From Polytrichum commune (lineage: Eukaryota > Streptophyta > Polytrichopsida > Polytrichales > Polytrichaceae), in the NCBI GenBank assembly GCA_950295325.1, contig OX485805.1, positions 14,619,501 through 14,683,500 on the forward strand: a stretch of DNA of 64,000 nt, given 5' to 3'. This document shows positions 14,471 to 45,732 of the stretch, piece by piece. Within the stretch, counting starts at the first letter, position 1; every line of letters begins with the position of its first letter. A model generated the notes under the pieces. That model saw only the letters and a program-made list of their open reading frames with translations, did not search any database and was not told where the DNA came from. Both the position numbers and the translations under genes were made by a program.

Positions 14471-15459
14471 ACGGTGGAGGCTGTTGGGTGGAGGACGTTG
14501 AAGCTGAATAGCTGGCTCCCCTGTCTGGTCGTCAAGGATTGGGTTATCCGTAGAGGCGCGGCGTGCGGGATAGGTTCAATGTAGTAGTAAAGCGACGCTG
14601 CGAGGTGTACAACTTGCTAACACAGTCAAGACACGGTCGGTGTACATAGTTTTAGTCTTCTAGACTGTTGCTGCGAGACATAGTTCCGGCGAACACAGTA
14701 GTGACGTGTTTTGTACATAGGACTCAGGGGGGAGGGTTTTGTTTAGGGATCAAGCTGGGATTTTGAGCGCTCCGATCCCGGAAGCACATGTTGGATTTAC
14801 TGTCTGTGGGCGGTGATGCCACGAACATTTGGACATGTAACCTCCTTTGCGTTGTCTATATGAACAATAATTTCTTGCACATCTAAAATGTAATGTGGCA
14901 ACCTGAGTGCATTGTTCCTGCACAGTCATCGAGCAGCGGAACACACCGCCCGCAATCCATGGTCCTGGAAATTGGTTGGGATGCCCCTGTAGTGGGACAG
15001 GGACGTACCTTACGGCGGTTTCAGAAGCCGCTCACCATTCGTCCATGTGGCACACAGTCGTTGCCCATAGGGTCACCTCACACAGCGGTTGGAGTAGGAA
15101 ACAGGCCGCACCGGTTACCAAACTCACCGGGGGACCCCTGTCTGGCGTCACATCGTCCACCCAGTACGAGACCACGTACACCGTCCAGCGTACCTCCACC
15201 CCCCCAACCCACACCGTATACGCCAACTACGGATACGTATTCAGTTTTCTCAACCCACCGGACCCCCTCGCACTTAGAAATGTAATAATAATACTCTGCA
15301 TAACCATTACAAGAAATAACTTCACAGCTATCATCCACACTTCTAAACCCACCCGCACAAAAAAGTTGCACAGTAGTCGCGGTAAAGTAGGGCTATATAT
15401 CAGCCACCAAATGCACCTCTGCACCAAAATACTGAGGTTCTACGCGCACCAACCATCAC
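14471..15459. other. Spacer before the retrotransposon remnant
   Basis: Moderately GC-rich sequence with a TAG-rich 3' region of the B3 gene at first, then a C-rich stretch (about 15110-15260) with overlapping short frames on both strands. No family recognised. No 5' LTR of the following element is visible here. Confidence 0.4.
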
Positions 15460-15897
15460 GTGCAACCTCTTTTAAGGGTTAATCTAGTACACGTAGATGG
15501 GACTCAAGAGGAGGACGCCATCTTGGAGGCTTCTAAGTTAGAGGAACCTTTATATTTTAAGACTACATCCACGGGTATAGTGGTTGGTCACGACGTCAAG
15601 GATTATCCCGATGTGCCGGCGGATTGGTATAGAAACAAGGATGAGCAAACCCACGTGGCGGAGAAAGATTGGCAGTATGTGGATGTGAAATTGAAGAATG
15701 GCAAGGTCCGCCAAATGAAGATGGGGTCAAAATTGGAGGAAAATGAGGTTAAGGAGTATAGCAATTTGGTAGATGAATTTAGCGACACCTTTGCTTGGTC
15801 ATACAATGAACTTAAGGGGATTCCTAGAGAGATGGTGGAACATCGTATTCCTTTGATTCCGGGAGCAAAACCGATTAGACAAAAAAAAAAAGGATGA
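15460..15897 (+). pseudogene. Ty3/gypsy pol: segment between protease and reverse transcriptase
   Basis: The frame includes EYSNLVDEFSDTFAWSYNEL and KGIPREMVEHRIPLIPGAKP, the conserved lead-in found just before the reverse transcriptase of plant Ty3/gypsy elements (D-x-FAW-s-y-d-l...H-x-l). It ends in a run of eleven A, where the frame slips before continuing as the reverse transcriptase. The upstream protease is missing. Confidence 0.8.
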
Positions 15898-16712
15898 ACC
15901 CAAAATTACAATTGGTGGTTAAAGCGGAATTGGAGAGATTGTTGAACGCCGGATTTATTAAACCGGTAGAGATTACGGATTGGGTGTTTCCAATGGTGTT
16001 GGTGAAGAAGAAGAACGGAAAACTAAGGGTGTACGTCGATTATAAGAAATTGAACGCTTGCATACATAAAGACTATTTTCCCTTACCATTTATCACGTTG
16101 CTACTTGAAGAGGTGGGAGGTCACGCGCGATATACTTTCATGGATGGGTATGCGGGATACAATCAAATTTCAATCGTCCTACAAGATATCCATAAAACGG
16201 CTTTCACTACACTTTGGGGGACTTTTGTGTGGGTCGTTATGCCATTTGGGCTATGTAACGCCCCTGCTACTTTCCAAAGATTGGTTATGTACATTTTCAA
16301 CGACTTGTTGTTCAAATCCATGACCGTGTTTGTAAATGATTTTAGCATTCAAAGTAATGTGAGTGATCATTTGCAATGCGTTAGGAAGGCGTTGGTGAGG
16401 TGTAGAAAGATGAGGTTAGCTTTGAATCCCAATAAGACATTCTTAGGAGTCAATATGGGAGTCTTGCTAGGCTACGTGGTTAGTGAAAAAAGAAGGGAAC
16501 CGGATCCAGAAAAGGTCGTGGCCATAAGCAAGTTAGAAACTCCAACCAATTCCAAAGGGATCTCTAAATTGTTAGGACACGTTGGGTGGTACCGGGAACT
16601 CATTCCGAATTTCTCAAAGATAGCGGTCCCTATCATACAATTGCTCAAGAAGGATGTCAAGTTTGAATGGACGCATGCCAAAGGGCTTTCGAACAATTGC
16701 GGGATAAATTGA
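15894..16712 (+). pseudogene. Ty3/gypsy reverse transcriptase, active site altered
   Basis: Reverse transcriptase boxes are visible in order: VKKKNGKLRVYVDYKKLNAC, then YTFMDGYAGYNQI, WVVMPFGLCNAPATFQRLV, FVNDFSIQ and LLGYVVSEK, followed by the connection region LGHVGWYRELIPNFSKIA. The first catalytic Asp (in FMDGYAGY) is present, but the second motif has Asn for the first Asp of the usual DD pair. The frame closes at 16712 because of a shift near 16680, and the RNase H region continues in another frame. Without the Asp the enzyme should be inactive (family knowledge). Confidence 0.85.
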
Positions 16713-17917
16713 GCACCTATCCCATTTTGAGGCCACCCGATTGGAGTAAACCCTTCCATGTTTTTTGCGACGCTAGCAACGTAGCGGTGGGTAGTGCGCT
16801 TTCTCAATCCACGTGAGAGAAAGAAAAAGATCAATTTATTGCTTATGCTAGCAAGCAATTGACACCGGCCGAACGGAATTATTCGACCACCGAGAGGGAG
16901 TGCCTAGCAATTGTGTTCTCGGTAAAAAAATTTCGACACTACCTCTTGTGTAACCCGGTAGTCTTCTTTGTGGATCACATGGCCATTAAATATTTGGTAA
17001 ACAAGGCGACACTAAGTGGTAGATTAACAAGGTGGGTTTTGCTATTAGAAGAATTCGACTACACGGTGGAATATAAACCGGGCCGCATGCATTTGCAAGC
17101 CGATCATTTGTCTAGATTGTCGGAAAAGATGGGAGAAAATCCGGTGGACGATAGGCTCATGGATGATGATCTCTTTGTGGTTACTTCAAAACTGGATTGG
17201 TACGCGGGTATCGTGGAGTTCTTGACAACCCAAACATTACCGGAGGAGTGGTCCAAGGAAGAAAGAAGGAAGGTTAGGGTTAATAGTAGACATTTCAGGG
17301 TGTTGGGACATATATTGTTTAGGAGGGGAACCGACGGCCTACTTAGGAGGTGTGTGTCCGCAACAGAGGTGCCTTCCATTTTATTGGCATGCCACGATAG
17401 TGCATGCGGCGGACATTTTTCAGGTCAACTTATTGGTCAAAAAATACTTAGAGCCGGATACTTTTGGCCTACCTTATTTCAGGATTTACACGATTATGTA
17501 AAAAAATGTGATGCTTGCCAAAGGTACGCCAGAATTGATCTTAGAATGGAAATGCCACTACATGTCTCTTTGCCATTAGTTCCTTTTGAAAAATGGGGAA
17601 TAGATTATGTGGGACCGGTTCATCCTCATTCCTCAAAGGGAATGGTTTACATCGTAGTAGCCACGGAATATTTAACAAAGTGGGCAGAGGCCAAAGCAGT
17701 CAAAACGGATACGGCCGCTCATGCGGCTACTTTCATGTATGAAAACATTATCACTAGGTTTGGATGTTCTAAAATCCTAGTCAGTGATAGAGGCACACAC
17801 TTTCTGAATGATCTCATTAGTGAGATGACTAGTAGGTTTCAAATAGACCATAGAAAACTACACCTTACCATCTGCAGACCAATGGTCAAACGGAGCGTGT
17901 CAACGGGATTTTGGTAA
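16680..17917 (+). pseudogene. Ty3/gypsy RNase H, zinc finger and first half of integrase
   Basis: RNase H starts in a different frame from the reverse transcriptase (ILRPPDWSKPFHVFCDASNV), meets a TGA near 16815, then continues as AERNYSTTERECLAIVFSVK and HLQADHLSRL. The integrase finger has H-x-S-x-x-GGHF (about 17391-17420) and CDACQRYA for the two cysteines. The core shows WGIDYVGPV with the first catalytic Asp and LVSDRGTHF with the second. The frame ends at 17917, after a slip that moves the third catalytic residue into the next frame. Confidence 0.85.
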
Positions 17918-18444
17918 GCATTCTACGCAAGACAGTTATAGACCCAAAGCAAGATTGGGACGTCAAATTGACAACGGCACTATGGGCATACCGGACAACC
18001 TACAAGGTGACCACCCATGCTACACCATTTTCATTAGTGTATGGTTTGGAAGCCACACTTCCGATCGAATATGAGGTAGAATCACTTAGGGTGGCCATAG
18101 GTTCGAGACTTACCAACAAACAATCCTTGAAGAATAGGCTCACCGACTTAGAAGAGCTTGACGAGCGAAGACGGACGGCCGCTCAACACATCGAGGCTAT
18201 TCAACGTCGAAGAAAAATCATCTTCGACAAACGACATAAGAAACGGGCACTTCAACCGGGAATGATGGTAATGATACAAGACGCAAGGAAGCTTGAGTTT
18301 CCTGCAAAATTTGATGCGGTGTGGTTGGGTCCTTACCTCATACACGCGGTTTTTTCTAACAACTCACTCCAATTGGAGACATTGAATGGTGAATTTTTTC
18401 CTACCCGTATTTCAGAAAGTAGATGTAAGGACTACAAAGCATGA
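17878..18444 (+). pseudogene. Ty3/gypsy integrase C-terminal part
   Basis: In this frame the sequence TNGQTERVNGILVSILRK carries the catalytic Glu, followed by LWAYRTTYKVTTHATPFSLV and GLEATLPIEYEV, the standard integrase C-terminal blocks. The protein ends LETLNGEFFPTRISESRCK with a natural stop at 18442-18444. No chromodomain is present. Confidence 0.85.
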
Positions 18445-22160: not shown

Positions 22161-22439
22161 TCATTTACAATTCTGAAGTTCAAAAAGGGCACTATTTACA
22201 CTGAAATATTGTTTCCTCATAAAAAATTCAAAAATTAACACCACATACCTATGCAAGAGAGTCACACCAATAAAATGTCATGACTTGAATTGAGTTGGAA
22301 GTTCATCAAGGTAGAACGCACATCCCATGTTACTACAAGTTTTTATGTTAGACATGTGATCTCCAAACCCATCACCCGGACTAGGACACTTAAGGGTGGT
22401 AGGTTTGGCCTCGCATGTTTTATTTGGTTTTATTATGAA

Positions 22440-22606
22440 TTACTTGAGATTATAAGGTAGAGGGCCCAATGTCCGCCAATGGTGGTGCCAACTGCCGAGT
22501 GTTGAGTGTTGAGTGTTGGAATCATGGTTTTATTCACATAAATCATGTTTTTTTGCATTAGAACCAAAAACCCAATGCAAGTTGGGTTTTTTCCACCCTT
22601 GCAAGG
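22440..22606 (+). repeat. Dispersed repeat, copy A (pairs with 37262-37435)
   Basis: It shares TTGAGATTATA, GTCCAATGTCC-type and CCAATGGTGGTGCC words, a triplicated GAGTGTT, ATGGTTTTATT and TTGGGT...TTGCACCCTTGC-type words with the copy at 37.3 kb, in the same order and orientation, with many substitutions and small indels. It ends about 90 bp before the left end of the 13-kb inverted-repeat element. Confidence 0.75.
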
Positions 22607-22698: not shown

Positions 22699-22729
22699 CA
22701 TTAGGGGAGGAATGGACTCAAAAGGTGCC
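22699..22729 (+). repeat. Left terminal inverted repeat (31 bp)
   Basis: Exact inverse of 35721-35751. Homology stops on both sides: inside it continues TGCCTTGTT, and outside it is preceded by AAAATCTAA. Confidence 0.85.
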
Positions 22730-23126
22730 TGCCTTGTTAAATGCCCGGAAAATCCATTTCCGGCTTTTAGGGTACCGAGGTACAAGGGGTGTACCCATGT
22801 GCTCGCGTGGCACCTAAGGTGCCATTGGACTTGGGCCGGGGTCCGGGCCAATGGTGTCATGCCTTGTTGTCAGCCATTGAGTTCTTGTTTTAGGGTACAA
22901 GGTAGTGGGGAGTACCCACATCCGGACGAGGACCGACGAGTCTCGCGCATGCTAGGTACGCAGCACTTGCACTGCGTACATTTTTTTGTGATCATGCCAT
23001 GGAGCTCCTGTGGGCGGCAACAAAGGAGGGCAAGGTAGTGGGGCTTAGTGTAGGATCAAACAGATGGGGATTTGTGGGGGGAATTAAAATTTCTGCGAAT
23101 GTGGGAGGTTGGGGTCACCAAGTTCC

Positions 23127-24749
23127 ATGCTGGGTTCATTTCAAACAGAGTGTTTTGCTGCCTTTATGTGGATGTTTGCTGCGTGGAATTGGACTGCGGA
23201 GTTGCCTGTTGCCGCAATGTTGTCGAGGAGGCCCAAGACTAAGATCCAATCCATTGTTTTGCACAACACTCACAATGCGGACGGCCAATGGATTCCAACA
23301 AAGTATGAGATTGGATCATGGGTGACTCTAAATCCTGGCTCATCTGGAGTTTGGGCAAGAGATGCCAAGTTGCATGGTGGAACAACTGTCAGAGGTGCAT
23401 ACAAAGGGAAAATAATTGATTGGAGATTTAGTGTACCTAATGTTGGTCGTGAAGTTACCACCAACCCTCGCGCTGAATCCATATTGATAAGATGGGCTTA
23501 TTCTCCACGGCAAACGCGGCTGGATCCCGATGTGGTCGTGCAGATACCCAAGTGCAATTGTAAGTATGTGGTTCATGATGCAGTTACACTCCTTCCCTTG
23601 TTTGTGGGTTGTAGCTTGTGATTACCACCTAACTAACCTGTGGTTGGGTTCTTGCAGATGTGTATGCATCGTATTTTGAAGATTGGGTCGACCCACTTTC
23701 GCTCCTGGGTGTAATAGTCGTGCTCCACACAGAAATTGGGGAAGCCCAGAGGAATGGGAGAGCCCATTCTGACCTGCTGGAGAATGGTATTTTCTTTTGT
23801 GGTGACACCTATGTTCCTCCCACCCCAGGCCAATTGTATAGTCACCTGGAGCCTATAGAATTGCCGGCATTTGAGGATCCTGCATGGCCATTACCGGACA
23901 TGCATTGTAGTGAGGCTTTTAGAGCCAAATTCTACTCTGATTTCAAAGGGGTTACCAAGGCAAGGACTGGTAGTAGCATGGGGCACTTGCAATGGTTTCT
24001 ACCAATGCATGTCATGGTAGACCTATTTCACGTTGCCAGGAACCTCCATAGAACTCCAACCATGGTTGTCGTCAGTGGAACAGATGAGGATTTGTTTTCG
24101 AGTTTGATGGACCCAGGGTGGGACTCAAAAATTCATTGTGGCAAGGATATAATCAACTGCGTGGTGGCTAAGCATACGGTCAAATTCAGGTGAGGACATG
24201 GTTTAAGCTTAGGGTGTGCATATCTTCTACCTTTGGTGGTTACACATGTTCTTCTAGGGTTACTGATGTGTGTATGTTTGCAAATGCAGGTATCACATGG
24301 GGGGGAGCATGCTATATGCTAATTTTCAATATGGTAGGCTTCGTCTATTGGGAGATGGTGTTACTTGGGAGCACATTGACCAAGTGCAGAATGAAGTTAT
24401 GGTGGAGGTGAAGCTGGCTATTGGTGATCATGAGATTGGCATTATTGAGGTGGGGAGAACATGGCCAATTCATCATATTCGCGAGGAGGCACGCATAATT
24501 TTGGGTGTTGACACCCCTGATGACTTCACACTATGGATTTGCCATGCTGGCCAAGCTGACCTTAAGGTATGCCCTCAATGTCTTGGATGTGGTAGTTTTC
24601 AACTTGTAATTTATGCTAGAATTGCACGGTGCTTGGGCTGACATTGTGCTCTGTTGGAATGACAGGTCAATCGAAGGCAAGAGGGCAAAATGACTGTGGG
24701 TGATGCAATGCCTCCATGCACCTTTAGGGTGGTTGCAAACTACTCATAG
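23127..24749 (+). CDS. Four-exon gene with a C-terminal ubiquitin-like domain
   Basis: Exons 23127-23559, 23658-24189, 24290-24566 and 24666-24749 join in phase at GT-AG borders, giving about 441 codons with no internal stop. The start is the first ATG in the open frame, so an upstream exon is possible. The N-terminal two-thirds (KTKIQSIVLHNTHNADGQW, DLFHVARNLHRTPTMVVVSG) match no family I know. The last ~85 residues begin VEVKLAIGDHEIGIIEVG, continue IHHIREEARIILGV and FTLWICHAGQADLKVNRR, and end TFRVVANYS. That gives two strands, a helix, then strands with a DLKVN turn, the layout of a ubiquitin beta-grasp fold. There is no terminal Gly-Gly, so it would be an internal Ubl domain, not a conjugated modifier. 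It is the only one of the three element genes on the plus strand. The intact exons suggest recent function or transposition. Confidence 0.65.
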
Positions 24750-25762
24750 TTTCATAGTGTTAGAGATTTTGAACTGGCAGCAAGTGATTCAACCACTCTG
24801 CCACTTCATCTGGTATATAGTGTAGTATATTTTGGGTTCCAACAACTTTGTGGGGACTACAGCAGTAACTTGGATGTGAGGCAGCTTTTATAGTCCTCTA
24901 GCATTAGTCCATTGTAGATTCAACTTGGAACCTTACCTGTTGTAATCTTGGATTTTGTTGTCCATTAGTAAATTTTGACATATTGACTTCCCACAATTGG
25001 TAGATTTGGTGTTACCTGATGCATCAATTCCATGCTGAATTCATACTTGGTGTTGTTGAACTAAACATTTGCCTTGATTTTCTTCTTGTTGTGTCAATAT
25101 TTATCACTTTCTACTTCAGATGTTAGTCCATGCTGATATTGGTTGGGGCCACCACACATTGTACAACTGGTTCAATGTTAAGAGGTTTTTTCCATTGTGT
25201 TTCAATATCAGGGTTGTTGTATCTTCATATCCAAGTATGTGTGTTTTCACCTTTCATGTTGGAGTTCAGTCAATTGTTAAGTGGCAAATTGTTGGGTTTA
25301 CCCAAAAGACTGGGTTGGTGAGCATCAGGGCAAACCACAGTCAGCTGGGCTACATGTTGCTGTCAACATTGAATCCAAACAGCCCATGTAATACCTTTTT
25401 CAGCAAGACACTTAAAGCTTGACCCTATACGCATAGCAAAGAGACAGGTCCGCCAAACAAATGGATGCACTTGACATGTGCAATGGTTTAGATAGTTCTA
25501 AGGATAAGAAAGAGAACGCTTGGCTGTTCAAAACTTTATTGCTTTATGGGCGCATTGTACATTGATGCCTCCAATGTAACATTGGTTTTCAAAGGCCAAA
25601 AATCTGCCAAGGGGCTATATACATCAAAATTGCCACAAAACTATGAACCTGACTACATCCTGGGAGCACCACAACTCTGTATTGGTGGTCTCCGCTACCG
25701 AATAACCTATAGAGCAAACATACTATACATCAATCTGGTGCTTCGTGCAAACTGCTTGAAAC
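24750..25762. other. Spacer between the convergent Ubl-like and RING-like genes
   Basis: This probably holds the 3' untranslated regions of both genes. An open stretch at about 25120-25420 is not recognisable and has no convincing splice links. Confidence 0.35.
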
Positions 25763-27574
25763 TCAATCCGCTAGTGATATTACAGTTTCCACCAGGCGAT
25801 CAATTAGGCCAGTGTTGAAGATAGCTTGAGCCTCCTCAGAGACACTTGGCGTCGCTCCTGAAGCCCTCCTCTTATGTCGAGAAGACCCCTCTTCGGCCCA
25901 GAATCCCTTTGAGGTCCTCCCTCCAGGTATGGCAGTATCAGGTGGAACAACTGCCAAGGGAGCTATGTTGATTGATTCAGGTGATGGTGGTATTGGGTCC
26001 TCCAAGTCCACAAGGACATAGTTTGGACTGGGGGCACCAGAGTCCTCATGTAATTTGGGTCCATTCACTCTGATCCTCTTGCCACGAACATGTTTAGCTT
26101 CTATTTCGCTAGTTGTCCTCTTCCTGACCTCGAAATCTTGTGTCGGTGGAGTCGTCGGCACAAACCTGTTTGGACCCAGCGGCTCAGCCCAAGCCGTTTG
26201 ATCCTGGCCAGCAACCTCAACCTCTACTTTCATCCCCTTGTCAAGAGGGAAACCCCAACTTGCCATCCAAATCCCACTGGCCTTCTCACCACATCTTGGG
26301 CAATATCGGTGTCCCACTACCAACATTTCCCACAGACAATGGGGATGGTACATACACCCACACGAAAAAGGAACTGCCACATTCTTCAAGAAAAATCTAC
26401 AACAACCAGGGCATGCTTTGGACAATGGACCCTCGGTGTCATCAGCGCAGGTGGGGAGCTTGTCAAATATACACTTTGGACGAATGGTGATCATGGCCAA
26501 ACGTTGTGTTTCCACCTGTTTCTTCAACACTTCTGATTCCTCATTCTTGGTAGCCCACTTCAAGTACTTGGCATCAATCTGGGCTTCCAGCTTGTGGAAC
26601 TTTGCTCTCAATTGGTCAATTTCTTCATTGTTGGCCACCATCATCATCAAATTGTCGCGAGCAGCTTCGTCCACCTCTGCTTTCTCCCTCAGCATTGCTA
26701 ATTTCCCCAACCTCGCAGACTTGTCCTTCAATTGCCTGTGCTGGGCGTCCAACTCAAGATCTTTGGCGTCGCAAGCGTTCAGCTGTGTTTGCACACTGTT
26801 TTGCTTTTCATTCAAGGTGTCAAGGGTAGCAGCCAGTTGCTTGACCTCATCCAAGCTGGCTTGTAGTTTTGATGTCAGCTGCTCTAATGACACGCTGGAA
26901 CCACCTGATGCAGATGCCGGTTTGTCTCCACCACCTCCCTGCGCAACTGCAGCACCCAAGATATTGACAATTGCCTGCACTTGCAACATTGGTGCAGGTG
27001 GTGAGAGCTTCATGGGATTCTTGGCAGGGTGCTCCAAACGCTCGGTGTACACCTTCGAGGCGTGCCCAGCCCAATTGACTGCTTTGTTGCGGCCATAAAA
27101 CATGTAGGCCTCCCGCAAAAAACTGATTGAGATACAGCCATTGTCTGGCTTCTCCCCATAGATGTTCTTGTATAGTGCAAGGTAGGTGTCTCGAGCAGTA
27201 GGGTCTCTGCACTTGTCCAGTGGGAACCTGGATTTGTTGTCATCGTCCATGTAAGGCCAGGTAGAGGCATAGCTAGAAGCAGGGCACTCTGACTCCGAGA
27301 TTTTGGTGGGCAGTGGGCCTTCGCTGCAAAGACCCAGCGTGGATGCGAACCATTTTTCGTCGTACTTCGCCGCTCGTCTCCCCATCAAGAAAGGCACTGC
27401 CTTCAACAACTTCTTCCTCAGCGCGGGTTGAAGCTTGTGCAGGTCAATTGGGTCATCCCATTGTGTCTGCACGACTGTCTCCAAAACATCAGGTGCGTCT
27501 CCTCGATTTCGGCGCGAGCCAGAGGCCCCTCCAGAATCATCTTCACGCCAGCGGCGACGAAGGGAAACGCTCAT
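25763..27574 (-). CDS. Intronless gene: coiled coil plus RING-type C4HC3 zinc finger
   Basis: A 603-residue open frame starts at ATG 27574 (MSVSLRRRWREDD). Residues 40-180 are globular with no known family. Residues 228-360 form a long coiled coil (LEQLTSKLQASLDEVKQLAA). Residues 388-428 give a zinc-finger pattern: C388-x2-C391-x13-C405-x-C407-x2-H410-x2-C413-x11-C425-x2-C428. The spacing is that of a RING finger, with Cys in the usual His position (C4HC3, as in RING-CH/RINGv types). The tail carries basic runs (KHVRGKRIRV), possibly a nuclear signal. RING proteins commonly act as E3 ubiquitin ligases, recruiting an E2. Here this is inferred from the motif alone. The complete frame over 1.8 kb, with no decay, contrasts with the pseudogenes elsewhere. 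It is convergent with the Ubl-like gene, which makes a shared pathway an attractive inference. Confidence 0.75.
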   Translation of the reverse strand: MSVSLRRRWREDDSGGASGSRRNRGDAPDVLETVVQTQWDDPIDLHKLQPALRKKLLKAVPFLMGRRAAKYDEKWFASTLGLCSEGPLPTKISESECPASSYASTWPYMDDDNKSRFPLDKCRDPTARDTYLALYKNIYGEKPDNGCISISFLREAYMFYGRNKAVNWAGHASKVYTERLEHPAKNPMKLSPPAPMLQVQAIVNILGAAVAQGGGGDKPASASGGSSVSLEQLTSKLQASLDEVKQLAATLDTLNEKQNSVQTQLNACDAKDLELDAQHRQLKDKSARLGKLAMLREKAEVDEAARDNLMMMVANNEEIDQLRAKFHKLEAQIDAKYLKWATKNEESEVLKKQVETQRLAMITIRPKCIFDKLPTCADDTEGPLSKACPGCCRFFLKNVAVPFSCGCMYHPHCLWEMLVVGHRYCPRCGEKASGIWMASWGFPLDKGMKVEVEVAGQDQTAWAEPLGPNRFVPTTPPTQDFEVRKRTTSEIEAKHVRGKRIRVNGPKLHEDSGAPSPNYVLVDLEDPIPPSPESINIAPLAVVPPDTAIPGGRTSKGFWAEEGSSRHKRRASGATPSVSEEAQAIFNTGLIDRLVETVISLAD

Positions 27575-27629
27575 GGTGGGACTCGCTGGCTTGGTTCAAG
27601 CAAGTTGTATCTACTGTGAGAGGCGACCC

Positions 27630-27870
27630 TTAAGATAACTACAAGATGGCCAGAACTACAAGACGAATTCGACTACAACTGCCAGTTGGATTGATGAACT
27701 CCAAGCCTCCAAGAACTACAAGTCGGAGATGGCTCCAAAAGCTCCACGATCTAGCGCCTTCACATACCAACTGTTTCCAGTAATTACAACTCTATGTTGA
27801 TAACTACAAAGATGACCCAATTCCACCAGCTACAAACTTGAGCGGATTCCAATAGCTACAAGGAGAAGAC
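27630..27870 (-). promoter_or_regulatory. CTACAA-rich upstream region of the RING-like gene
   Basis: CTACAA (TTGTAG on the gene strand) occurs seven times in about 240 bp, near 27636, 27655, 27672, 27715, 27804, 27830 and 27855, starting about 60 bp upstream of the gene's ATG. The spacing is irregular. It may be a promoter element cluster or a degenerate repeat. Confidence 0.35.
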
Positions 27871-27932
27871 TGCTACCCTTCAAGCAGTAGCGAAGCCGAA
27901 GTGGTCCCAACAACCAAGAATGTCGAATGCGG

Positions 27933-28205
27933 TGAAGGTGAAGCTGGCTATTGGTGAAGAAGGCATTTGTGCATGTGGCTCCACCAACTGTTCGAATTGC
28001 TCCCTCCCAAAACAACGAGAGCGGCAAAGGACTAAATTGGTGCAATCCTGTGAGAGTACGAGGATGTGATGCCCACATGATTCAGTGTGAGGACTTGCCA
28101 TTGAGTGTTACTCACACTCAATTCACATGGCACCACTTACTACAGTGCTCACCAAAGTCCCTCAACCAAACCGCAAGGGTGTTAGGCCATAAGAAGCCAA
28201 CGTAA
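27933..28205 (+). other. Partial echo of the Ubl-domain exon
   Basis: AGGTGAAGCTGGCTATTGGT plus GA (22 bp), the start of the ubiquitin-like domain at about 24409, recurs at about 27938, after which the sequences diverge. An open frame runs on to 28205 without a known family. It may be a remnant of a second, rearranged copy of the Ubl gene, or a small gene conversion tract. Confidence 0.4.
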
Positions 28206-28218
28206 TGTTATTTTTTCC

Positions 28219-28297
28219 ATTCATCCACCACTTGGGTCCATTCATCTGCCATCTGGGTCCATTCATCTGCCACTTGGGTCCATTCATCCGCCACCTA
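28219..28297 (+). repeat. Short tandem repeat, ~22-bp unit, four copies
   Basis: CATTCATCCACCACTTGGGT and variants (CATCTGCCATCTGGGTC, CATCCGCCACC) follow each other four times. It marks the start of the non-coding repeat block inside the 13-kb element. Confidence 0.8.
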
Positions 28298-29610
28298 ACT
28301 AGTATTCCATGGGGTGAGGATCCCTTTCATGGTTGTGGCCATTTCCACGTACAACCGTGAATTGACCGTTTAATGTTTTAAATGGTAATCAAATATTTAT
28401 ACACAATAAATGCACTACCAAACTCCTAATCACATCCACGACACTTGGCTGGGTGAGGAACGCCCTCGTGTCCACATGAATAACTTGTCACCACATAATC
28501 GAATTCGTACAACAACAAATCATTTATTTCCAACATGCGGGTGGATTGGAAGCAAAAATTAAATTGCGTCCGACTTTGGTATGGTTAGTCAACCCATTGT
28601 GAGACCCATTGTGAGACCCATTGTGAGACCATGTAAGTAGGCATTGTGAGACTATGTAAGTAGGCATTTCTTTACATACAAGTAGGTCTAAATGGTTCTA
28701 AATGGTTATTCATCCCAAATGCTTGGCTACTTGGGGATATCAAGAACCTAACTTAAACCTCTATGGGGTGTGGATCCACTAAATGGTTGTGGCGAATTCC
28801 ACATACATCCATGAATTGACGTTTAGAGGTTTAAATGGTAATCATCCATTTGTACACATTAAATGCTACTAGGAATGTACTAATCACATTCAACACACTT
28901 GGTTGGGTAAGGAACGCCATCTTGTCTACATCAATAACTTCTCACGTCATAATAGAATTCGTACAACAACAAATCATAATTTCCACGATTTTGGTGGATT
29001 GGAAGCAAATATTTAATAGCATCCGACTTTGGTATGGTTAGTCAACCCAATGCTTGGTTGGGTCCATGTCCAAGCATACTATGCACAACGCTAGTTGACT
29101 ACCTCATCCACTACCAAGTCCATGACCATGGTTAGTATCACGTCAAATACAAGTAGGCATGGCGGATGTCTTTACATGTAGGCATGGCGTGGCGGATGTC
29201 TAAGTGCCAATGCAAGTAGCTCTAACTGGTTATTTACATATAAGTAGGTCTAGATGGGTGAAGATGGTTATTTTGCCGAAATGGTCCACTACTTGGGGAT
29301 ATCAAACACCTAACTAGTATGGTGTGTTTGGTGGATCCAGGTTATGGTTGTGGCCAATTCCACATACAACTGTGAATTGACTCGTGTGGAGCTTTAAGTG
29401 GTAATCAATTATTTTGTCCACAATAATTGTACATGGAAACTACTAGACACATCCAACACATTTGGTTGGGTATTAAATGCAAGCTTATTTTCGTCAAGAT
29501 CTTGGCACGTCATGTTTTAATTCGTACCATTCCACCACTAATACACAATAATTATGGTGGAATGGATGTAAACATTGAATAGCAATTGACTTTGGTGTGG
29601 TTAGTCAAAC
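28295..29610 (+). repeat. Three diverged tandem copies of a ~300-bp block with spacers
   Basis: Copies start near 28295, 28748 and 29308 with CCTAACTAGTAT-type text. Each continues through GGTTGTGGCC...TTCCACATACA, GTGAATTGAC, AATGGTAATCA, CACTTGG(C/T)TGGGT, GAATTCGTACAACAACAAAT, GGTGGATTGGAAGCAAA and GACTTTGGTATGGTTAGTCA in the same order. They differ by many substitutions and indels, and spacers between them differ in length. There is no coding pattern. The block separates the RING-like gene from the transposase-like gene. Confidence 0.8.
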
Positions 29611-30260
29611 CATGTCGTGTTTGGGTCCATCTCTCCACATACTATGCACTCGGCTAAAATGAACATGCAATCCACTACTTGTAGTGTGACTATGGTTAGT
29701 ATGTCGTCAAATATCATATAGCCCACACAACAATTAGGGTGTGACTCGATCCTCAACATCTCATGATAAATCACATTGGGTTCTATCAATTGGCACATGC
29801 AGTGCCCAAATATATTTGGATTGGGTCACGCCATTTCTTAACCCATTAGTCTAGTAGAGTATTCATTAATAGGTCTCGTCCTTGATGACCAATTGCACAA
29901 TTCTACCACTTGCAAGTAGGCATGGCCAATGCGCTCATTGGATGTGTGTGACAATCAGTATGTTGTCAAATATCACATAGCACTCCAGTCGATGAAGTAG
30001 GGGCACAAGCCAATTGACGGTGTTGTATATTAGGCCACACGATCAAACATACATTACAACATGACATGTTGGGCCCATCATCCCATTTGGGCCAACGCAA
30101 AAGGCAATTGATGGTGATCCCGATATGGGTGTACAAACCCGTGGCGGCCACCGCCATTGTTTTAGATACTTATTACAACCTACACCTTGGGAAGGAATTA
30201 ATATTACCCACTACCAAAATTTTCAAATTGTGACTAGAGCCATGCTTAGAGGCGGACTAC

Positions 30261-30293
30261 CCCAAACCCCAAACCCTAAACCCTAAACCCTAC
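30261..30293 (-). repeat. Interstitial telomere-type repeat inside the 13-kb element
   Basis: CCCCAAACCCCAAACCCTAA continues to about four CCCTAAA-type units, two exact. It is the reverse-strand form of the run at 5021. Confidence 0.75.
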
Positions 30294-30751
30294 ACCCTAC
30301 AATGTGATAATGAGCGTAAGATTAGCTATAAGGGGCAGGATGGCTAATCATAGTTGTTCATGCCAAAGTGAAGTTATAGGAAGTTGCAACCAATTGTAGT
30401 TGCCACAAGTGACCCTTACAACAAACGTGGTGGCACCAAGTATCATTGGGGCTAGGACCACAAACTGTGATGAGAGCGCATGATTAGAGGCGGACGCCAA
30501 TCTCGACATGTGCCGCATGAGCCATATTTATGATGACCGGTAAGGAGATTTGGCTTCAACGTGAATTAGACTCGTATACATGATGTGGGGTTACCTATCA
30601 TCATACAGAATCGGCAAGGTATGGGATTAGGGTGGTTCCATTTATCTTGACATTAAATGTGGCAGTGGATTCAACACTCTGGTACTAAGTACAGGGAGGG
30701 GGGGGGGTTGTAGTGGTCAATTATAGTTTAAGATGTTCGTGGTGTGGGTGT

Positions 30752-30985
30752 CCATTCATCCGGTTCCCGTGGCCAACGTTAGTTGTTTGCACCAGACATC
30801 CAACATTATGTTTTGATGGCTAATACATAGCTCAGGACACATCAAAATTGCTCAAATATGCCGTTCATCCGCTTCATATTACATTCATCCGCTTCACGTG
30901 GCCATAGCTAGGTGTTTGCACCAGACATCCAAGCAAATATTTTGATGGCTAATACATAGCTCAGGACACATCCAAATTGCTCAAA
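30752..30985 (+). repeat. Duplicated ~120-bp block
   Basis: The text CATCCG(G)(C)TTC, GTTTGCACCAGACATCCAA, TTTTGATGGCTAATACATAG and CTCAGGACACATC(A/C)AAATT appears twice, about 125 bp apart, with few differences. It lies just downstream of the 3' end of the transposase-like gene. A G-run of ten is nearby at about 30698. Confidence 0.8.
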
Positions 30986-31077
30986 TATTCTCCAACTTTT
31001 GATATAAAGCTACACCCTAATTTACATCACTTAGCTTCAAAATGTATTTCCAAACCTACAACCTAACGTGCTACACA

Positions 31078-34000
31078 TTATCCAATAGCCGCTGAAATTT
31101 CATCCACCACTTCATCTGGGACTGTTGAGTCTGAAGTTGGGGGCATGTCAACCGCTCTACTAACCCACCTGCTACCTACACGATTCCTAGTTGCAGTCCA
31201 CGCAGCATGGGCAGCATTCGCCCCCGATGTATGATAGGCTAGGCGTTTACGCTCTGATATTTGGGCTTTGTTTACATCAACAATGGGAGCATGCAAAGAC
31301 ATTTCCCTCAATTTTGCCTTGTTTGCAAACCTATGTTGGATATTTTGATACCAGTGCTGGTATTGTTGTACAATAGCACTAGACCTTCGTTCGGTGCCAC
31401 CATGTTGGGTGTGGTGTTGAAGACTGGACTTGGCCGCATGGTGGGACTTCTCCATCCCCTGGTTGTTCCAAACAGCCAAACTTCCATATTCTTGAACGAA
31501 CCATGGGGCGTGCCTTACAAGAACATGCTGCAAACCATACAACAATAAAATTTAGGCAATGATATGAACCCTGCTTGAACAATACGGCAATGGCCTAACA
31601 AAGCTCTATGCTGGAATAAAAATGACTTACCATGTAGTGGGTGACATGTTCCTCTCCAAAATTACGAATGAACAACCTTCCGAACTCTTCCACCTTTGTT
31701 TGGAACACAGATCGTTCATCGTTTGTGAGAGTCAATCCACACAAATATGGGTAGATTTGTTCCAACGCAGTCCATGTTGCCACCCTACCAAGGTAAGCTT
31801 GCCCTCGCTGTAGTTGGTTGTCTTCCGAACGAAGGATATCTTTCCACACTCGATCCTGGCCCGACCAAGTCGATGGTTGGAACAATTTCCCAGCATTAAC
31901 TCCACTTAGAGAGGGTTTTTTTGGTATGTTGTTGTTGGGTCCACTGCGGTCAATGTCTTTGCTGATGACCACGTTTCCGCCGTGCATGCCTGTAGCTGAT
32001 AGAGATTTCTCCATTCTCTTTATTGCTACTTCCTTTCTTGATGGGTTGGACATGTTCCAAATGAACATAATATGCAAATGTATTAGTTTTTCGGTGATCC
32101 TGGTTAGAGCATGTAGGGTGCAGATGTGAACTCTCTCCAACGGTATGGGAAGAATAGGCTTCCACCTGTCTCTGTTGCCAACCTCGATTGGCCCCATGCT
32201 GACACTACGTGCAAACAACCCACTATTCCAGTTGTTTTTTGCTCTACTTTTTGCTACAAGTGAAGCAGTTGGAGCCGACACCACCACAGATTTCTGCCTT
32301 TCTTGATTGCAGTAGACACACGCGAACTTGGACATGGCACCACCCTTTAGTCCATACATGCACTTGATGGTCTTCATATCAGCACTCAAATGCCATTCCA
32401 CTTTGAATGTGCCTATGTCTGGTACCACCAAAGGTTGCCCTGATTCTTGGGCAGCAATAACTTCCGGGAATTTTGTTTGGGAAAATGTCCACTTTAGAAC
32501 CTCATATGACTCCTTTGCCACAAGGAAACATGCTATCGGCCAAATCTCCTGTTCCGATTGCACAGAGAAATATCTTTCATCGTTTTTTATGACCTCTGGA
32601 TCTAAGGCTCGATTCATGAGGGTAATGGAAACTCTCTCAAACTTTTTTCCATGCATAATCTCGGCCTCATCAAGTTTTAGCACAAACTTGAGCGGATCAT
32701 CACCAACCTCTGCAAATATAAAAATTCGGACCACCATCAGTTTCTGACAAAACCAAAATTCACATACAACATTGAATGATTCATGACCCAATTCCAGGAG
32801 CTCCTCCACATACCTGCTTCGGTTATCCCATATAATGCCACCATAGTCCGTTGAACAGCTTCAATGTCAGCAAAAAAAGTGTTTTTGTCATTCAGAACAA
32901 TCATTTTGTCCTTCTGGTTCTTTGGCTTCGATGATGTCCTAGTTGGTGCCACCTCATGCGTATTGTTGATGTGGTAGTAGTCCCCCACAAAATCCTTGAG
33001 CTTCATGTTCAAGTCCACTCTCAACATTCTCACCTATCACACCCGTCATCAATACATTAGGTAAGGTCATGTGAGGACGACTCACTCTCTGGTGGCCAAA
33101 ACAATTGAAAATTGCACAGTAGGCAGTGGGACTAACATACCTTGTTAGGAGTAGGCAGGAAGTTGGCTTTAAGGTCTTTGTCCACAATACCAACTCAACC
33201 CTTGATAGTTTTGTAGATTTGTCCATAACCACGTTGGGACACCCCTGTCATGTCACATGCTGCCAAGATTGACTCAGTATCAATCTCAGCAGCAATCTTC
33301 TCTAAGTAGTGGTTGGCCATTCTTCTTCCAACAAAACCCAATTTTGATGTGGATCCAAGAGCTAATGCTTCATCTCTTGATAACATCCCAGCAAGCGCGG
33401 TAGCAGTCCCTTCTTGAGTGGATTTGGGACCACACAATCTCTTCCTACTACCACTTCCCTTGTTGCCATCAACCAACTGGTGGTGAGTCTTGGGTTGCAA
33501 CAACCGCCTAATTGCTGAAATACGAGCACGTCGTTGACCTCCTTTTTGCGCCAATTGGTCCAAAGACAATGTGTGGCGAAGCTGGGACCTCGTACCAAAG
33601 GGTGTCATCACCATCTTATGTAGTTTCTGTTGGAGCCTCACCATTTCGTTTTTGGCATCAGTTAATTCACATGTAAGGGTGTTAAGAACATGTACGTGTT
33701 CTTGGCTCAAGATTGCAATGCGGTCATCTGATTCTCTTTTTCCCTCCTCTAAAGTTTGTTCATGAGCATGTGTTGCCTCTCTGGCTTGACATTCATATAC
33801 ACAGAGATGTTGCTTGTACGCAGCCAAATTAATTTCCAAATCACGTTGCAAGGCTAGACATTGTTCTCTCAAGTGCTCACTCTGTAGTTGGTAGGAATTC
33901 ATCTCATCAGTTCTAACTTGTTGCAATTCAACCACTTGAGCTGCCCAACCCTTTTTCACTACATCCAATTCACTCAACAATTCACCAATATAATGTTTCA

Positions 34001-34499
34001 AGCGTTCAATCTCTGTATTGGTACTCACATTGTGGTCTAATACTTTCTGCTGAAGAATTCTCACAAAATTGGTGCTATATCCATTTGGACCTGCCAACTT
34101 CTCGACATACCCTAAAAGGCCTGCTTGCCCATGACATACAAACTCTAAAAATGCCTTTAGTGTCCTGAACGGTGGAGGCATGCCAGTGGAAGGATCTGTC
34201 GGATAGATGGACCCATCAAGCCACAAATCAATATTGGTGTCACCTGCTTTGCGCTTGATTGGGAAAGAGCTTCTTGGATTTTGCCCCTCCTCAATTCGAC
34301 TACCCCTTTTAAAAACATGCGCATACTTTGAATCAAGAACCACTGATGGAACATAGGCCCTGACAATGTTGGCTTCATCAAGCAATGCCATTACAACATC
34401 CAAGAAAACAGTGGAACAATGGCAACTGATTGAGTTCTTGACACAACAGAGGGTGTGGTTCTCCCAGTGTCGATGGAGGGGAAACCTAACAACCGTCAT
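31078..34499 (-). CDS. Four-exon gene: long coiled coil plus transposase-like domain
   Basis: Exons at 33141-34499, 32814-33033, 31631-32709 and 31078-31527 join in phase at GT-AG sites, giving about 1,035 codons. An ATG at 34499 is the first Met in the open frame, which continues upstream without one. Residues about 170-300 form a coiled coil (EIERLKHYIGELLSELDV). Next comes a basic Gln/Arg region. The C-terminal half has WHLSADMKTIKCMYGLKGG, then FACVYCNQER (a CxxC knuckle), PIPLERVHICTLHALTRITE and LAVWNNQGMEKSHHAAKS. This D...CxxC...H-x-x-LH...Q-G-x-E-K arrangement resembles, from memory, RNase H-fold transposase-like proteins of animal transposons. The Asp, a central position now Cys, and the Glu would be the active-site candidates. 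One TGA lies in frame at 33195-33197, near the end of exon 1. The gene may therefore be disabled or use an unseen splice. Confidence 0.55.
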
Positions 34500-35720
34500 A
34501 CCAGATTCGGAAGGTGGATTTTGGGTGGGAAATTGGAATGTTGGTCGCAGTTCATCCACATTAGAATCAGTACATTTGGGGGGAATTAAAATTTCAACAG
34601 CACTGTGTACTGGAGGTTGTGGACACCAAACAATTATGAATGGTTGGTCATAGATCCACCGCCGCAATCATATTCCAATGTGACATCAGATAGTTGAAGT
34701 AAAATATCTACAAGTAACCTCATTTATATGGAAATGGCAATTTTGCATGGGGACGTTGTGAGAAATTGGGAGCCATCAGCAACCCTGATTTTGCCAGTAT
34801 AGTTGCACTCGCGATTAAAGATATTGTGTTTGATTAATCTATTCCAACATATTTCCTTGGGATCCCCAACTATGAAGTTTACTGAAATGTTTAAAATAGT
34901 GGATTATTGTCTACAAACTAGTATATAGAAGTAATTGTTCTAATTTGATTTGACAAGAGCCAACAATTGGGAAGAATGCACAACTCTGATAGTAAAATTG
35001 CGGACAATGGAAGTTAGAGTGTACTTTCATCATGGGCCCCTCATGTTGACTTAAATCAACGGCTGCATTTCATGTAGCTATGAGGGAACTACCAATGAAT
35101 TATCTCAAATTTATGAACTAGTTCCACTAGGACCAATGCAGCAAACACTAAATAGTGGTCCCAACTAACGGCATCGATGTGATCTACCTATCTTGTATTT
35201 AGATTGGTCTTCAATTAGTGGTGGGAGGATCAAGCAAGTGGGGTGAATGAACGACTTTAATATGATCTCACTAACTTGCTACAATAATGGCCCCGATTTT
35301 GTGATGGCAATAATCAACGGCTTTGATCGGGCTATGATTCCACTAATGGGGTGCATGTTTAGTGAATCTCCCCCTCAATCAACCCCATATCAAGTAGTCA
35401 TCACATGGACAAACCTAGTGACACATAGCTTCCCCCATTGTGGTACACCTCAAGTGGGCGTGTACTTCAAGTACCGGCCTTGCGAATCCCTCACTCATTG
35501 AGAAGACTCCTCCTTAGCTCCACGTAGATTTCCATCCCTCATCCATCCGCCACGCAAGCATAGAAGTGGATGATTTAAGTTGCCAACCGGGCAACCCAAA
35601 CACCACCTCATCGTACTTCGGCTCATCGATGTGACGCCGGCTGGACAATGAGTGCACCATTTAGTTCTAGTTTGTACGCCCAAATATTAGAGGAAAACCC
35701 TTTTCTCAAAAAAACTCGTG
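34500..35720. other. Right subterminal region of the 13-kb element
   Basis: The open frame of the transposase-like gene extends to 34667 without an ATG, so a 5' exon could lie here. From 34.7 kb on it is AT-rich with no coding pattern. A GGGGGAATTAAAATTTC word near 34578 also occurs near 23077, just before the Ubl-like gene, in the opposite gene context. Confidence 0.35.
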
Positions 35721-35751
35721 GGCACCTTTTGAGTCCATTCCTCCCCTAATG
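35721..35751 (-). repeat. Right terminal inverted repeat (31 bp)
   Basis: Exact inverse of 22699-22729. It is followed outside by CCCCTTATAAGTTTGTGG, a sequence that also occurs in inverted form near 48343-48360. Confidence 0.85.
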
Positions 35752-37260
35752 CCCCTTATAAGTTTGTGGTGAATTTTGTGTCAAGTGGGACCTTCTACAT
35801 TGATATGTGTAATTGGGTCATCCCACGCCATGGTGATTATCCCGATTAGTGTGTGTTACTATTCGGAGTTACGTAGGGCAATAACGTCCTACTCAAGAGG
35901 TCAATCTCTACTAATGAAAGTTCAATAGGTTGTTCGGACATTATAGAACATAAAATGACTTGCTTGGTAAAATTTTACATTCTCATTAAAGAATTATAGC
36001 ATTGTGTAACCCCGACTAGGAATACTAAATGAGATAATCAATGTAGTCATATATCGACATCCCATACTATTTTGTATATTTACTACTCAGTAACAAACTA
36101 TAATATATACATACATCTTTCACATGACATTACTTAGTTGATGAGCTATGTTCATGGACCCCATAATAGATTCAAGAAAAAAAACCTTTGCATGCTAGAA
36201 TTCTAGTGCTTTAGACTAAATCTAAAGTCAGGGCAGTTGAACACAACTCAATAGCTAAGTATTATTATGCAATGTGGTTAATACAAAATTGAATAAAAAG
36301 GTTTTAGGTTTATGTTATTTGGTTTTGACCCAAGACAATTTTGCATGGGTGAAGAGGCAAACTATTCGCAAAGACCATGACTTTACGAAGCAACTACATA
36401 ACAATTTCTTTCCAAAGAAAGAGTTTACAATTAAAAAAACACTATGATATTTTATAGTTGCTTGTCGAAAAGTTCACAATACACAGAGTGAGTACTCCCT
36501 ATATGTGAGGAATCCTGGGGTTAAAAGACAATTATGCTTATGTGATTTCCGGTCTCACGGAACGCACCCAAGACCTCTATAATGTTATAAAAATCCCAAT
36601 TGCACATATGAATGTGAACTAATATGGGGTCTTTGATATTAACTCCGGAGTCATTCATCTAGGACTAATAATCTACATGCCCCAATCCAATGGACTCCGT
36701 TTTCACCTAGGGTAATATGTAGTGGTGGGGGCACGGCTCAATGAGATGGCCAACAAGTAAGGAAGTTAATTAGAGTGGAAGATATTTTGGCCAAGAGCAA
36801 ACAATGATCAATTTGTTGTTGCACCTTGTCTTATAACTTATAGTTGAGCCATCCATGCATGCGGCCCATGCAAGACCATGCTTATATTATCATAGTATGC
36901 GATTAGATTATGATAAAAATTACGTCACTTCAAGGCCCTTGACATTACCCGGGTCACTTCAAGGCCCTTCAACGCATGGTCAACTCTGGAAGTTCACCCC
37001 CCCTCACCCGCTTTCTTGGTTGGGGCATACCACCATGTACACTGGTTCTTTGGAGGCAAGGGTTAAGGCATCCAACAAGGAATAAGTGTATGGGTTGGTT
37101 CGCCCAAATCCGCCTGCTCCCCTTATGAGGGCACAAGACGGCCTTTCACACAAGGCTGGCACCACGTGGTTTTTTACAATTGGGTTTTTCATAGTTTTTT
37201 TCAAAAAAAAAAACCCCAATCATTTGAGGTCCAGCAAAATCCGGTTTCATTCAATTTTAT
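35752..37260. other. Gene-free stretch right of the 13-kb element
   Basis: AT-rich sequence with no coding pattern. The direct repeat GTCACTTCAAGGCCCTT occurs twice near 36925 and 36953. Confidence 0.4.
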
Positions 37261-37261
37261 T

Positions 37262-37435
37262 ATAGATATGTTGAGATTATAGGGCAGAGGGTCCAATGTC
37301 CACCAATGGTGGTGCCGAGTGCCAAGTGTTGAATGTTGGAATGAAACCATGGTTTTATTTGCAAAAATTTGGTTTTTTGCATTAAAACCAAAACCCCAAT
37401 GCATCGGCTAGAAAAAGTTGGGTATTTTGCACCCT
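37262..37435 (+). repeat. Dispersed repeat, copy B (pairs with 22440-22606)
   Basis: Same ordered words as copy A: TTGAGATTATAGGGCAGAGG, CCAATGTCCACCAATGGTGG, CCATGGTTTTATTTG, TTTGCATTAAAACC and TTTGCACCCTTGC. The copies are in the same orientation, 14.8 kb apart, and bracket the 13-kb element plus 1.5 kb. Confidence 0.75.
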
Positions 37436-38668
37436 TGCTTCCATAAACTTGTATTTAAGTAAATTTGGATATAATTTCAAAATCTAGACTTTTTGGTTGC
37501 TTCAGCTCTATGGGCGAATTTGTCGATACACGTTTACGATACCTACATTTTATGGGAGATATATAAATCCTTAGTGATTACTTTAACGTTATGTTATTAA
37601 AATATAATGGAAACATCAAATGTATCTTTTTGATGTTAAATCCATATAATCAAATGTTGAAAAGTGGAATTATTAAAACTTATAGTTTTAGAACTATTTA
37701 AATATTATCATAATGAACTCTATAGGTTCTATTGCAGGATTATGTCATACAATCCTATTGAAGGATCGTATGATAGAATTCAACATGTTATAATTATGGA
37801 CATGTTATAATCAAGTCATAGGACAACATTGAGTGATTCCATGTCAAGTGCAAATATTTCAAATTATGTTGTGAAGTTTTGATTTGAGTAAAATTTGAGT
37901 GAATAACTATGAAAATAAATATATAAATGAATATCAATGTAGTGCAATGGCTTGTGATGTGCATTTACCACCTTCTACGCATTGCTAGGTGGGCATGGGG
38001 TGAAAGAATCATACTACATCACAAACTTCTAAATTCATATACCAACACAATTGCACATTGAATTGCAACATCTACCAGGCATAGGGTTGCATTCAATCTT
38101 CAATTTCTACATTTCATAGTTGCAAGACCCAAAAGGTAGAACAATGAGTTTAAAAGAATGTTGCATTAGCACTAAGTAGACTCAATATCTAACTCTAAAG
38201 GGTTTAGGGTAGAAGAACCTATAATGAACACTTTGAGCACTTGAGACTCTTAACATGTATAAAACAATTCCTTAAATTTTTGGGAAATTAGTAAGGCTAT
38301 AACAAAGCTAATGCATTGACAAATGTGTGGCATTATAATATGTTGAGTTAACAAATGTGCAAAACCATATTATGATTTGGAATTGTTCTACATGGAATAA
38401 AAACTGTAATTCCCATATCCCAATAGACTTGCACAACATGGGACATGTAAACATATTTATAGTATCTTACACTTCAATATTGAACAACTTTCAATGTAAG
38501 AAATGCTTGCAAATTGAACTTTGTCCCTTTATCTTACATTATTAGGCATTCACTACAAATACGTAAGTACTCACATAAATGTTGTCAATATCTTAAGGAA
38601 CTGTAAAGTTTTCCTCTTGCATTGTAAACTCTTCTTGTAATGTTTTCTTCATATTTGATACATGTTTT
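37436..38668. other. Gene-free stretch downstream of the receptor kinase
   Basis: Strongly AT-rich and without coding pattern. The first part left of 38669 is likely the 3' untranslated region and terminator of the kinase gene. Confidence 0.4.

Positions 38669-45732
<7,064 letters not shown>

Follow-up and report, generated by a model that had tools for sequence, protein, structure and literature searches.

A 64,000-nt stretch of Polytrichum commune DNA (GCA_950295325.1, contig OX485805.1, positions 14,619,501-14,683,500, forward strand; hereafter the window) contains an element of about 13 kb that we interpret, with a probability of roughly 0.78, as a copy of a plant group of cut-and-paste DNA transposons. 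This group would be related to the known Transib/RAG elements while lying outside them, and would encode a RAG1-like recombinase, a BAH-domain reader and a coiled-coil RING protein. The element is framed by terminal inverted repeats (TIRs), between which gene 1 is on the plus strand and genes 2 and 3 are on the minus strand. The TIRs are recognised as a perfect pair, by a shuffle test and by matches elsewhere in the genome.

22699..22729, plus strand: left TIR, 31 bp, CATTAGGGGAGGAATGGACTCAAAAGGTGCC
23217..24749, plus strand: gene 1, predicted BAH-domain protein, 411 aa; exons 23217-23559, 23658-24189, 24290-24566 and 24666-24749
25763..27574, minus strand: gene 2, coiled coil and C4HC3 RING finger; single exon, 603 aa, RING at 26413-26306
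31079..34499, minus strand: gene 3, putative RAG1-like transposase, 1,035 codons; exons 34499-33141, 33033-32814, 32709-31631 and 31527-31079
35721..35751, minus strand: right TIR, 31 bp

The two 31-nt arms are 100% complementary and separated by 12,991 nt, and the first 21 bases of the arm occur twice in the window at up to three mismatches, compared with 0.00 expected from 100 shuffles. No target-site duplication is visible at the borders of the window copy. In the 407.8-Mb assembly (64 contigs; the seven contigs examined span 42 to 78 Mb) the 21-bp end core has 111 matches with at most two mismatches, 55 forward and 56 reverse, versus 0 and 0 for the reversed control. We examined two samples of these ends: 20 short pairs chosen by spacing, and 20 long stretches from 13 places carrying the end. 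Both ends were present in all 20 short pairs, 19 of which measure 391-420 bp and one 566 bp, and in each case the ends match CATTAGGGGAGGAATGGACTC within three mismatches.

Two further places, C5:15485225-15497222 (12.0 kb) and C2:68669024-68694046 (25 kb), carry all three genes between two ends in the window's order and orientation. The original prediction, made from the letters of the window, was that a perfect 31-bp inverted repeat frames three genes as one mobile unit, and it proposed looking for other end copies that bracket the same genes. Both the repeat and the mobile unit are borne out, and the search succeeded at these two places. Ends without the genes, which the prediction had regarded as evidence to the contrary, do exist, and many end copies are gene-free; the 20 short ones that were read look like miniature inverted-repeat transposable elements (MITEs) and fit non-autonomous derivatives. 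At C4:47674600, the end copy is accompanied by gene 3 and the first part of gene 2, and the rest of gene 2 and pieces of gene 1 lie beyond in the same relative order, with stops. Pieces of gene 1 only are present at C4:36732677-36743848 and pieces of gene 3 at C1:6660100, and four others of the 13 places have a partner end within 0.4-1.2 kb. Outside the 13, genes 3, 2 and 1 occur in the same relative order, broken, at C3:16267927-16.30 Mb inside an end pair 88 kb apart. We also noticed a 66-kb cluster of end copies (C4:2708798, 2725524, 2751263 and 2775195; L036-L039) that have nearly the same flanks and are apparently duplicated and inverted; no element genes were present in the stretches read there.

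Our assignment of gene 3 comes chiefly from structure prediction. The predicted structure of a relative, P0002 (38% identical to the window query), gave 24 PDB matches at E<=0.001, 23 of them RAG1 and one Transib, a list from which the absence of a superfamily does not count against that superfamily. The gene 3 family is thereby modelled as having a RAG1-type catalytic core fold. In the window protein itself, a DDE (Asp-Asp-Glu) triad and the CxxC and HxxxxH motifs are present at the RAG1 positions, the E block and HxxxxH having been aligned by profile, CxxC and the second D by hhalign and the first D by eye:

32671-32669, 32380-32378 and 31452-31450, minus strand: proposed catalytic residues D540, D637 and E912 of gene 3
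Within gene 3, minus strand: proposed zinc ligands C657, C660, H887 and H892 (CxxC, HxxxxH)

We infer from this model that the gene 3 product is the catalytic component. A transposase-like gene had been part of the original prediction and stands; its RAG1/Transib-like type, read from the structural matches of the relative, had not been seen then. Protein-search relatives from the fern Adiantum nelumboides, together with the gene content, point to a plant host. Relatives of genes 1 and 3 do not exceed 53% identity over a large part of the query (plus one 61% match over 11%), versus 79-96% for gene 2. This is probably an effect of the length filter (0.55-1.75 of the query length), which excludes individual exons from closely related plant copies of genes 1 and 3. 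No relatives were found in viral_contigs (three genes), genome_contigs (genes 2 and 1) or plasmids (whole element), and Pfam scans gave nothing above cut-off.

Gene 1 has a reading frame that is open across its four exons, with three introns that are all GT-AG, and the exon borders proposed for the window's genes fall at or near the ends of the relatives' tblastn spans. Among its 19 protein-search relatives is P0016, 45% identical to the window query, whose predicted structure has a BAH fold at residues 4-193 with the plant histone readers SHL/EBS as the closest matches; a search of PDB sequences with the gene 1 profile (A3) returned no BAH chain. According to this model the gene 1 product is a member of the BAH family, and the earlier label of ubiquitin-like for this gene is corrected accordingly. 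The C-terminal 85 or so residues are perhaps ubiquitin-like, as they are arranged, at low confidence, in beta-beta-alpha-beta-beta order in the P0016 model (ten-residue means of the predicted local distance difference test, pLDDT, of 29-73 from residue 331); the tail has no structural match of its own in that model and the window tail no Pfam match. As a BAH protein, the gene 1 product may be expected to bind a histone mark.

The coiled coil and C4HC3 RING finger reported earlier for gene 2 hold up: the ligands are spaced C-x2-C, C-x-C-x2-H-x2-C, C-x2-C, and all eight positions are intact in seven of eight aligned sequences, these being the seven that span the RING. Among PDB sequences, gene 2 is matched best by RCHY1 (E 0.014), BRE1 (0.13) and RING1B (0.2), and judging from these sequence features the product is most likely an E3 ubiquitin ligase. 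Gene 2 is multi-copy beyond the window: the protein search returned seven relatives with identities of 79-96%, of which four are 589-608 aa long and three are shorter. In the genome it has 18 matching stretches, of which three are near full length without stops (the window, C2 and C5 copies), several are broken and a divergent set stands at 27-43%. Two of the divergent loci, L061 and L062, have a gene 1 relative alongside, and L063, which overlaps L061, has a gene 3 exon; no CATTAGG-type end was found within the 3-kb loci L061-L063. One candidate was rejected on homology: the Adiantum model P0012, considered as a transposase fused to a gene-2-like protein, has a tail that ranked 947th among reported sequences for the gene 2 profile (5,001 searched) and matched gene 2 at a BLASTP E of 1.2, with only a CxxxYHPxC stretch in common.

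In comparisons of the element copies, all three genes have ratios of nonsynonymous to synonymous divergence (dN/dS) below 1. Nei-Gojobori point estimates, made without a significance test, put genes 1, 2 and 3 of the window at 0.195, 0.215 and 0.281 against the C5 copy and at 0.246, 0.240 and 0.438 against the C2 copy. The dS of gene 2 was 0.511 against C5 and 0.269 against C2, and the corresponding values for genes 1 and 3 were 0.286 and 0.155, and 0.069 and 0.038. Gene 2 dS is therefore 1.8 to 7 times that of its neighbours within the same element pair, which suggests, at the level of sequence, that the RING gene has been exchanged between elements.

A second subfamily provides evidence on both gene content and target sites. 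A genome search with the catalytic exon of gene 3 gave 61 matching stretches: seven places at 91-100% (one split), nine full-length at 50-57% and the rest partial or more distant. At one of the nine, C2:14308000-14319999, a RAG1-like gene on the plus strand and a BAH gene on the minus strand are convergent. The sequences CATTAGGAGTGAAATGAACCC and CATTAGGAGTGGAATGGACCC, which start CATTAGGAGTG, are the two best matches to the window end in 12 kb (5 and 3 mismatches; the next has 7) and bound 5,577 bp. The ends have thus diverged together with the transposase/BAH pair. There is no gene 2 relative between the ends (best profile E 0.38; no other frame of 150 aa). Gene 2 accompanies genes 1 and 3 in the long elements; the one compact 5.6-kb element that was read lacks it.

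The subfamily-2 element is inserted inside a gag-like frame. We cut out the element alone and searched the genome with the rejoined 150+150 flanking bases. Of 152 candidates, 40 were scored, and all 40 match positions 1-300 with a span of exactly 300 bp, at 99% identity in 39 cases and at 100% in the remaining one. Because every scored empty site spans exactly 300 bp, this insertion left no target-site duplication (0 bp; one element). For MITEs of the window's subfamily the counts were as follows: (i) none of 20 had four or more identical bases directly at the ends; (ii) identity of 3 bp was seen in 1/20 versus 0.2 expected, and of 2 bp in 4/20 versus 1.6 expected; and (iii) a search for offset duplications in the 20 gave no common pattern, L015 alone having an 8-bp repeat 4 bp off the right end. 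The region into which the subfamily-2 element is inserted has at least 40 genomic copies at 99-100%. To the right of the element (L070, C2:14314000-14319999) the gag-like frame runs, as judged by eye, into a stretch resembling a cytosine DNA methyltransferase (GWPCQGHS, FENV).

RAG1 and RAG2 are derived from a transposon, and the animal RAG-like (RAGL) elements are the obvious point of comparison. Passages of PMC7204232 give RAGL elements 5-bp duplications, heptamer-like ends and convergent RAG1L-RAG2L genes, and passages of PMC4411706 give Transib typically 5-bp duplications and heptamer-like ends, with canonical Transib carrying the transposase core only; the RAG-like elements described in these passages are animal ones. 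Like RAGL/ProtoRAG and TransibSU of animals, the elements described here combine a RAG1-like DDE core with a second gene for a known or predicted histone reader, and the convergent pair of the subfamily-2 element parallels RAG1L-RAG2L. Unlike RAGL, the host is a plant, the partner has a predicted BAH domain (over residues 4-193 of P0016) where RAG2L has a kelch propeller and PHD finger, the RING is on a separate gene, there is no 5-bp duplication at the subfamily-2 empty site and the ends are CATTAGG rather than a CAC heptamer of the recombination signal sequence (RSS) type, as judged by eye. Transib differs in the same two marks and in lacking the extra genes. Because the 5-bp duplication and CAC-type ends, two defining RAGL/Transib marks, both fail here, we file the elements as a plant group related to RAGL/Transib and not as a member of it.

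Other known systems share single features with the group. A RING finger is stated for RAG1 and two Chapaev subgroups, and RING and Chapa domains for no other known elements, in PMC4411706; a RING tied to a RAG1/Transib-type transposase is thus common to these and to our elements, whereas unlike Chapaev the RING here is in a separate coiled-coil gene. CACTA (EnSpm) elements differ in that the termini here are CATTAGG rather than CACTA/CACTG, and 3-bp identity at the ends is confined to the single MITE noted above. Spy elements are DDE transposons that insert without duplication, a likeness to the subfamily-2 element. The PHIS superfamily, to which Spy belongs, contains groups that differ in target duplications, and Spy transposases are Harbinger-related according to PMC4482050, whereas the best structural matches here are to RAG1. 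Passages of a plant transposon review (PMC10741241) list seven TIR superfamilies and make no mention of Transib, and passages of a study of Ectocarpus (PMC12477816) report retroelements with chromatin-reader domains and giant DNA transposons with epigenetic accessory genes, without the words BAH, Transib or RAG1. Among the listed titles of open-access PMC papers, none deals with a RAG1-like element of plants that carries a BAH or RING gene. Plant VANDAL elements encode VANC, an anti-silencing helper, beside a transposase of a different superfamily and with different helper domains; what they share with the present group is a helper, possibly acting on chromatin, encoded next to the transposase.

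A plausible scenario is that the gene 3 recombinase recognises and pairs two ends starting CATTAGG, cuts them in the fashion of RAG1 and joins them into a target cut without stagger, which in the sister subfamily would be the join that left no target-site duplication. The BAH reader could dock the transposase complex on a histone mark, making it a functional counterpart of the RAG2 PHD finger, and gene 2, when present, might ubiquitinate the transposase or a host factor. The RING or the BAH protein may control the transposase or host silencing. A wider proposition, to which we would give even odds, is that RAG-type transposition is not an animal invention, and that plants have a RAG1-like recombinase with a convergent histone-reader gene, a BAH domain substituting for the PHD finger of RAG2, and a duplication-free target cut. 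If so, the pairing of RAG1 with a reader would either be very ancient or have arisen on two occasions, and the RING on its own gene would have its counterpart in RAG1's own RING finger. A plant RAG1-like group with its own chromatin reader would add a second example of a transposase paired with a histone reader and would make the steering of such recombinases by reader domains testable; a RAG1-like enzyme that inserts without a duplication would depart from the usual mechanism, and the RING gene offers a concrete test case for a transposon-encoded E3 in plants.

Several observations weigh against our interpretation. For gene 3: (i) the structure was predicted for the relative P0002, rather than the spliced window protein, at a moderate pLDDT of 64; (ii) the RAG1 profile scored 12.6 bits against 11.5 for the best shuffle, which is weak alone, and hhalign to RAG1 gave an E of 0.049 and a probability of 1.1%; (iii) there was no RAG1 match in the Pfam scan, from P0002 alone or from the A1 profile (PDB sequences; mostly coiled-coil matches); and (iv) the frame contains one in-frame TGA (codon 435, at 33197-33195), and gene 3 of the C5 copy is interrupted by two stops of its own. 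For gene 1, the structure is likewise that of a relative (P0016; pLDDT 68, moderate) rather than of the spliced window protein, and the Pfam scan of gene 1 proteins had no BAH match. Among the 13 end-bearing places, any of the genes was found at five and all three at three, one of these broken. Furthermore, the empty sites come from one subfamily-2 element only, rather than from the window's subfamily. The marginal sequence similarity to RAG1, together with a missing target-site duplication and RSS-like heptamer that are unlike Transib/RAG (available parts of PMC7204232 and PMC4411706), would also suit a transposase from another DDE superfamily, one that combines an RNase H core with a zinc-binding insertion, the RAG1 match reflecting the general fold. 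Set beside the list of RAG1 structures matched by P0002, we think this unlikely.

The accessory genes might be passengers, that is, host BAH and RING genes captured by an ordinary transposon and without a role in transposition. Plant transposable elements often carry host gene fragments, gene 2 is dispensed with in the 5.6-kb element and host copies of gene 1 are possible. We nevertheless regard capture as quite improbable, given that genes 1 and 2 have dN/dS of 0.20-0.25 between element copies, that the BAH and RAG1-like pair recurs in a subfamily with only 55% identity in the transposase exon and that the BAH and RING pair is found at two loci at 28-41%. Moreover, all three near-full-length, stop-free copies of gene 2 among the 18 matches are in end-bounded elements, the others being broken or partial, and pieces of gene 1 adjoin four of the broken or partial gene 2 loci (surroundings were read for some loci). 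A more open matter is whether gene 2 encodes a structural or DNA-binding subunit with a RING-like zinc finger and no ubiquitin ligase activity. RING fingers can be purely structural, the evidence is at the level of motifs and no Pfam RING model reaches the cut-off (zf-RING_2 E 3.3). This possibility we consider real and yet doubtful, as the eight ligand positions are kept wherever they are spanned and the best PDB sequence matches are E3 RINGs, the coiled-coil BRE1 among them. Finally, a chance inverted repeat around unrelated plant genes, which the lack of a duplication at the window copy might be taken to favor, was rejected as having a negligible probability: the shuffle expectation is 0.00, the control for the 111 genomic end matches is 0, the gene order is the same at two more end-bounded places and the same ends bound every short pair picked by spacing.

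Further features lie within and around the element. Degenerate repeats separate genes 2 and 3:

28216..29713, no strand assigned: degenerate repeats inside the element

Between the same two genes, at 30259-30299, are about six copies of ACCCTAA, the plant telomere unit. An exact 19-bp word, TGGGGGGAATTAAAATTTC, is found at 23075-23093 and 34577-34595, immediately upstream of gene 1 and of gene 3, two genes that face each other, and could be a shared control or binding site. A direct repeat of about 190 bp (77%) flanks the element at 22417-22602, some 97 bp from the left end, and 37244-37438, 1.5 kb from the right end; it may be a dispersed repeat, or an older element that surrounds the 13-kb unit. 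Elsewhere in the window we recognised, by eye, a retroelement with polymerase and integrase-like frames at 15436-18444 (with a P0010 match) and fragments of a minus-strand gene for a leucine-rich-repeat receptor-like kinase at 39331-41230.

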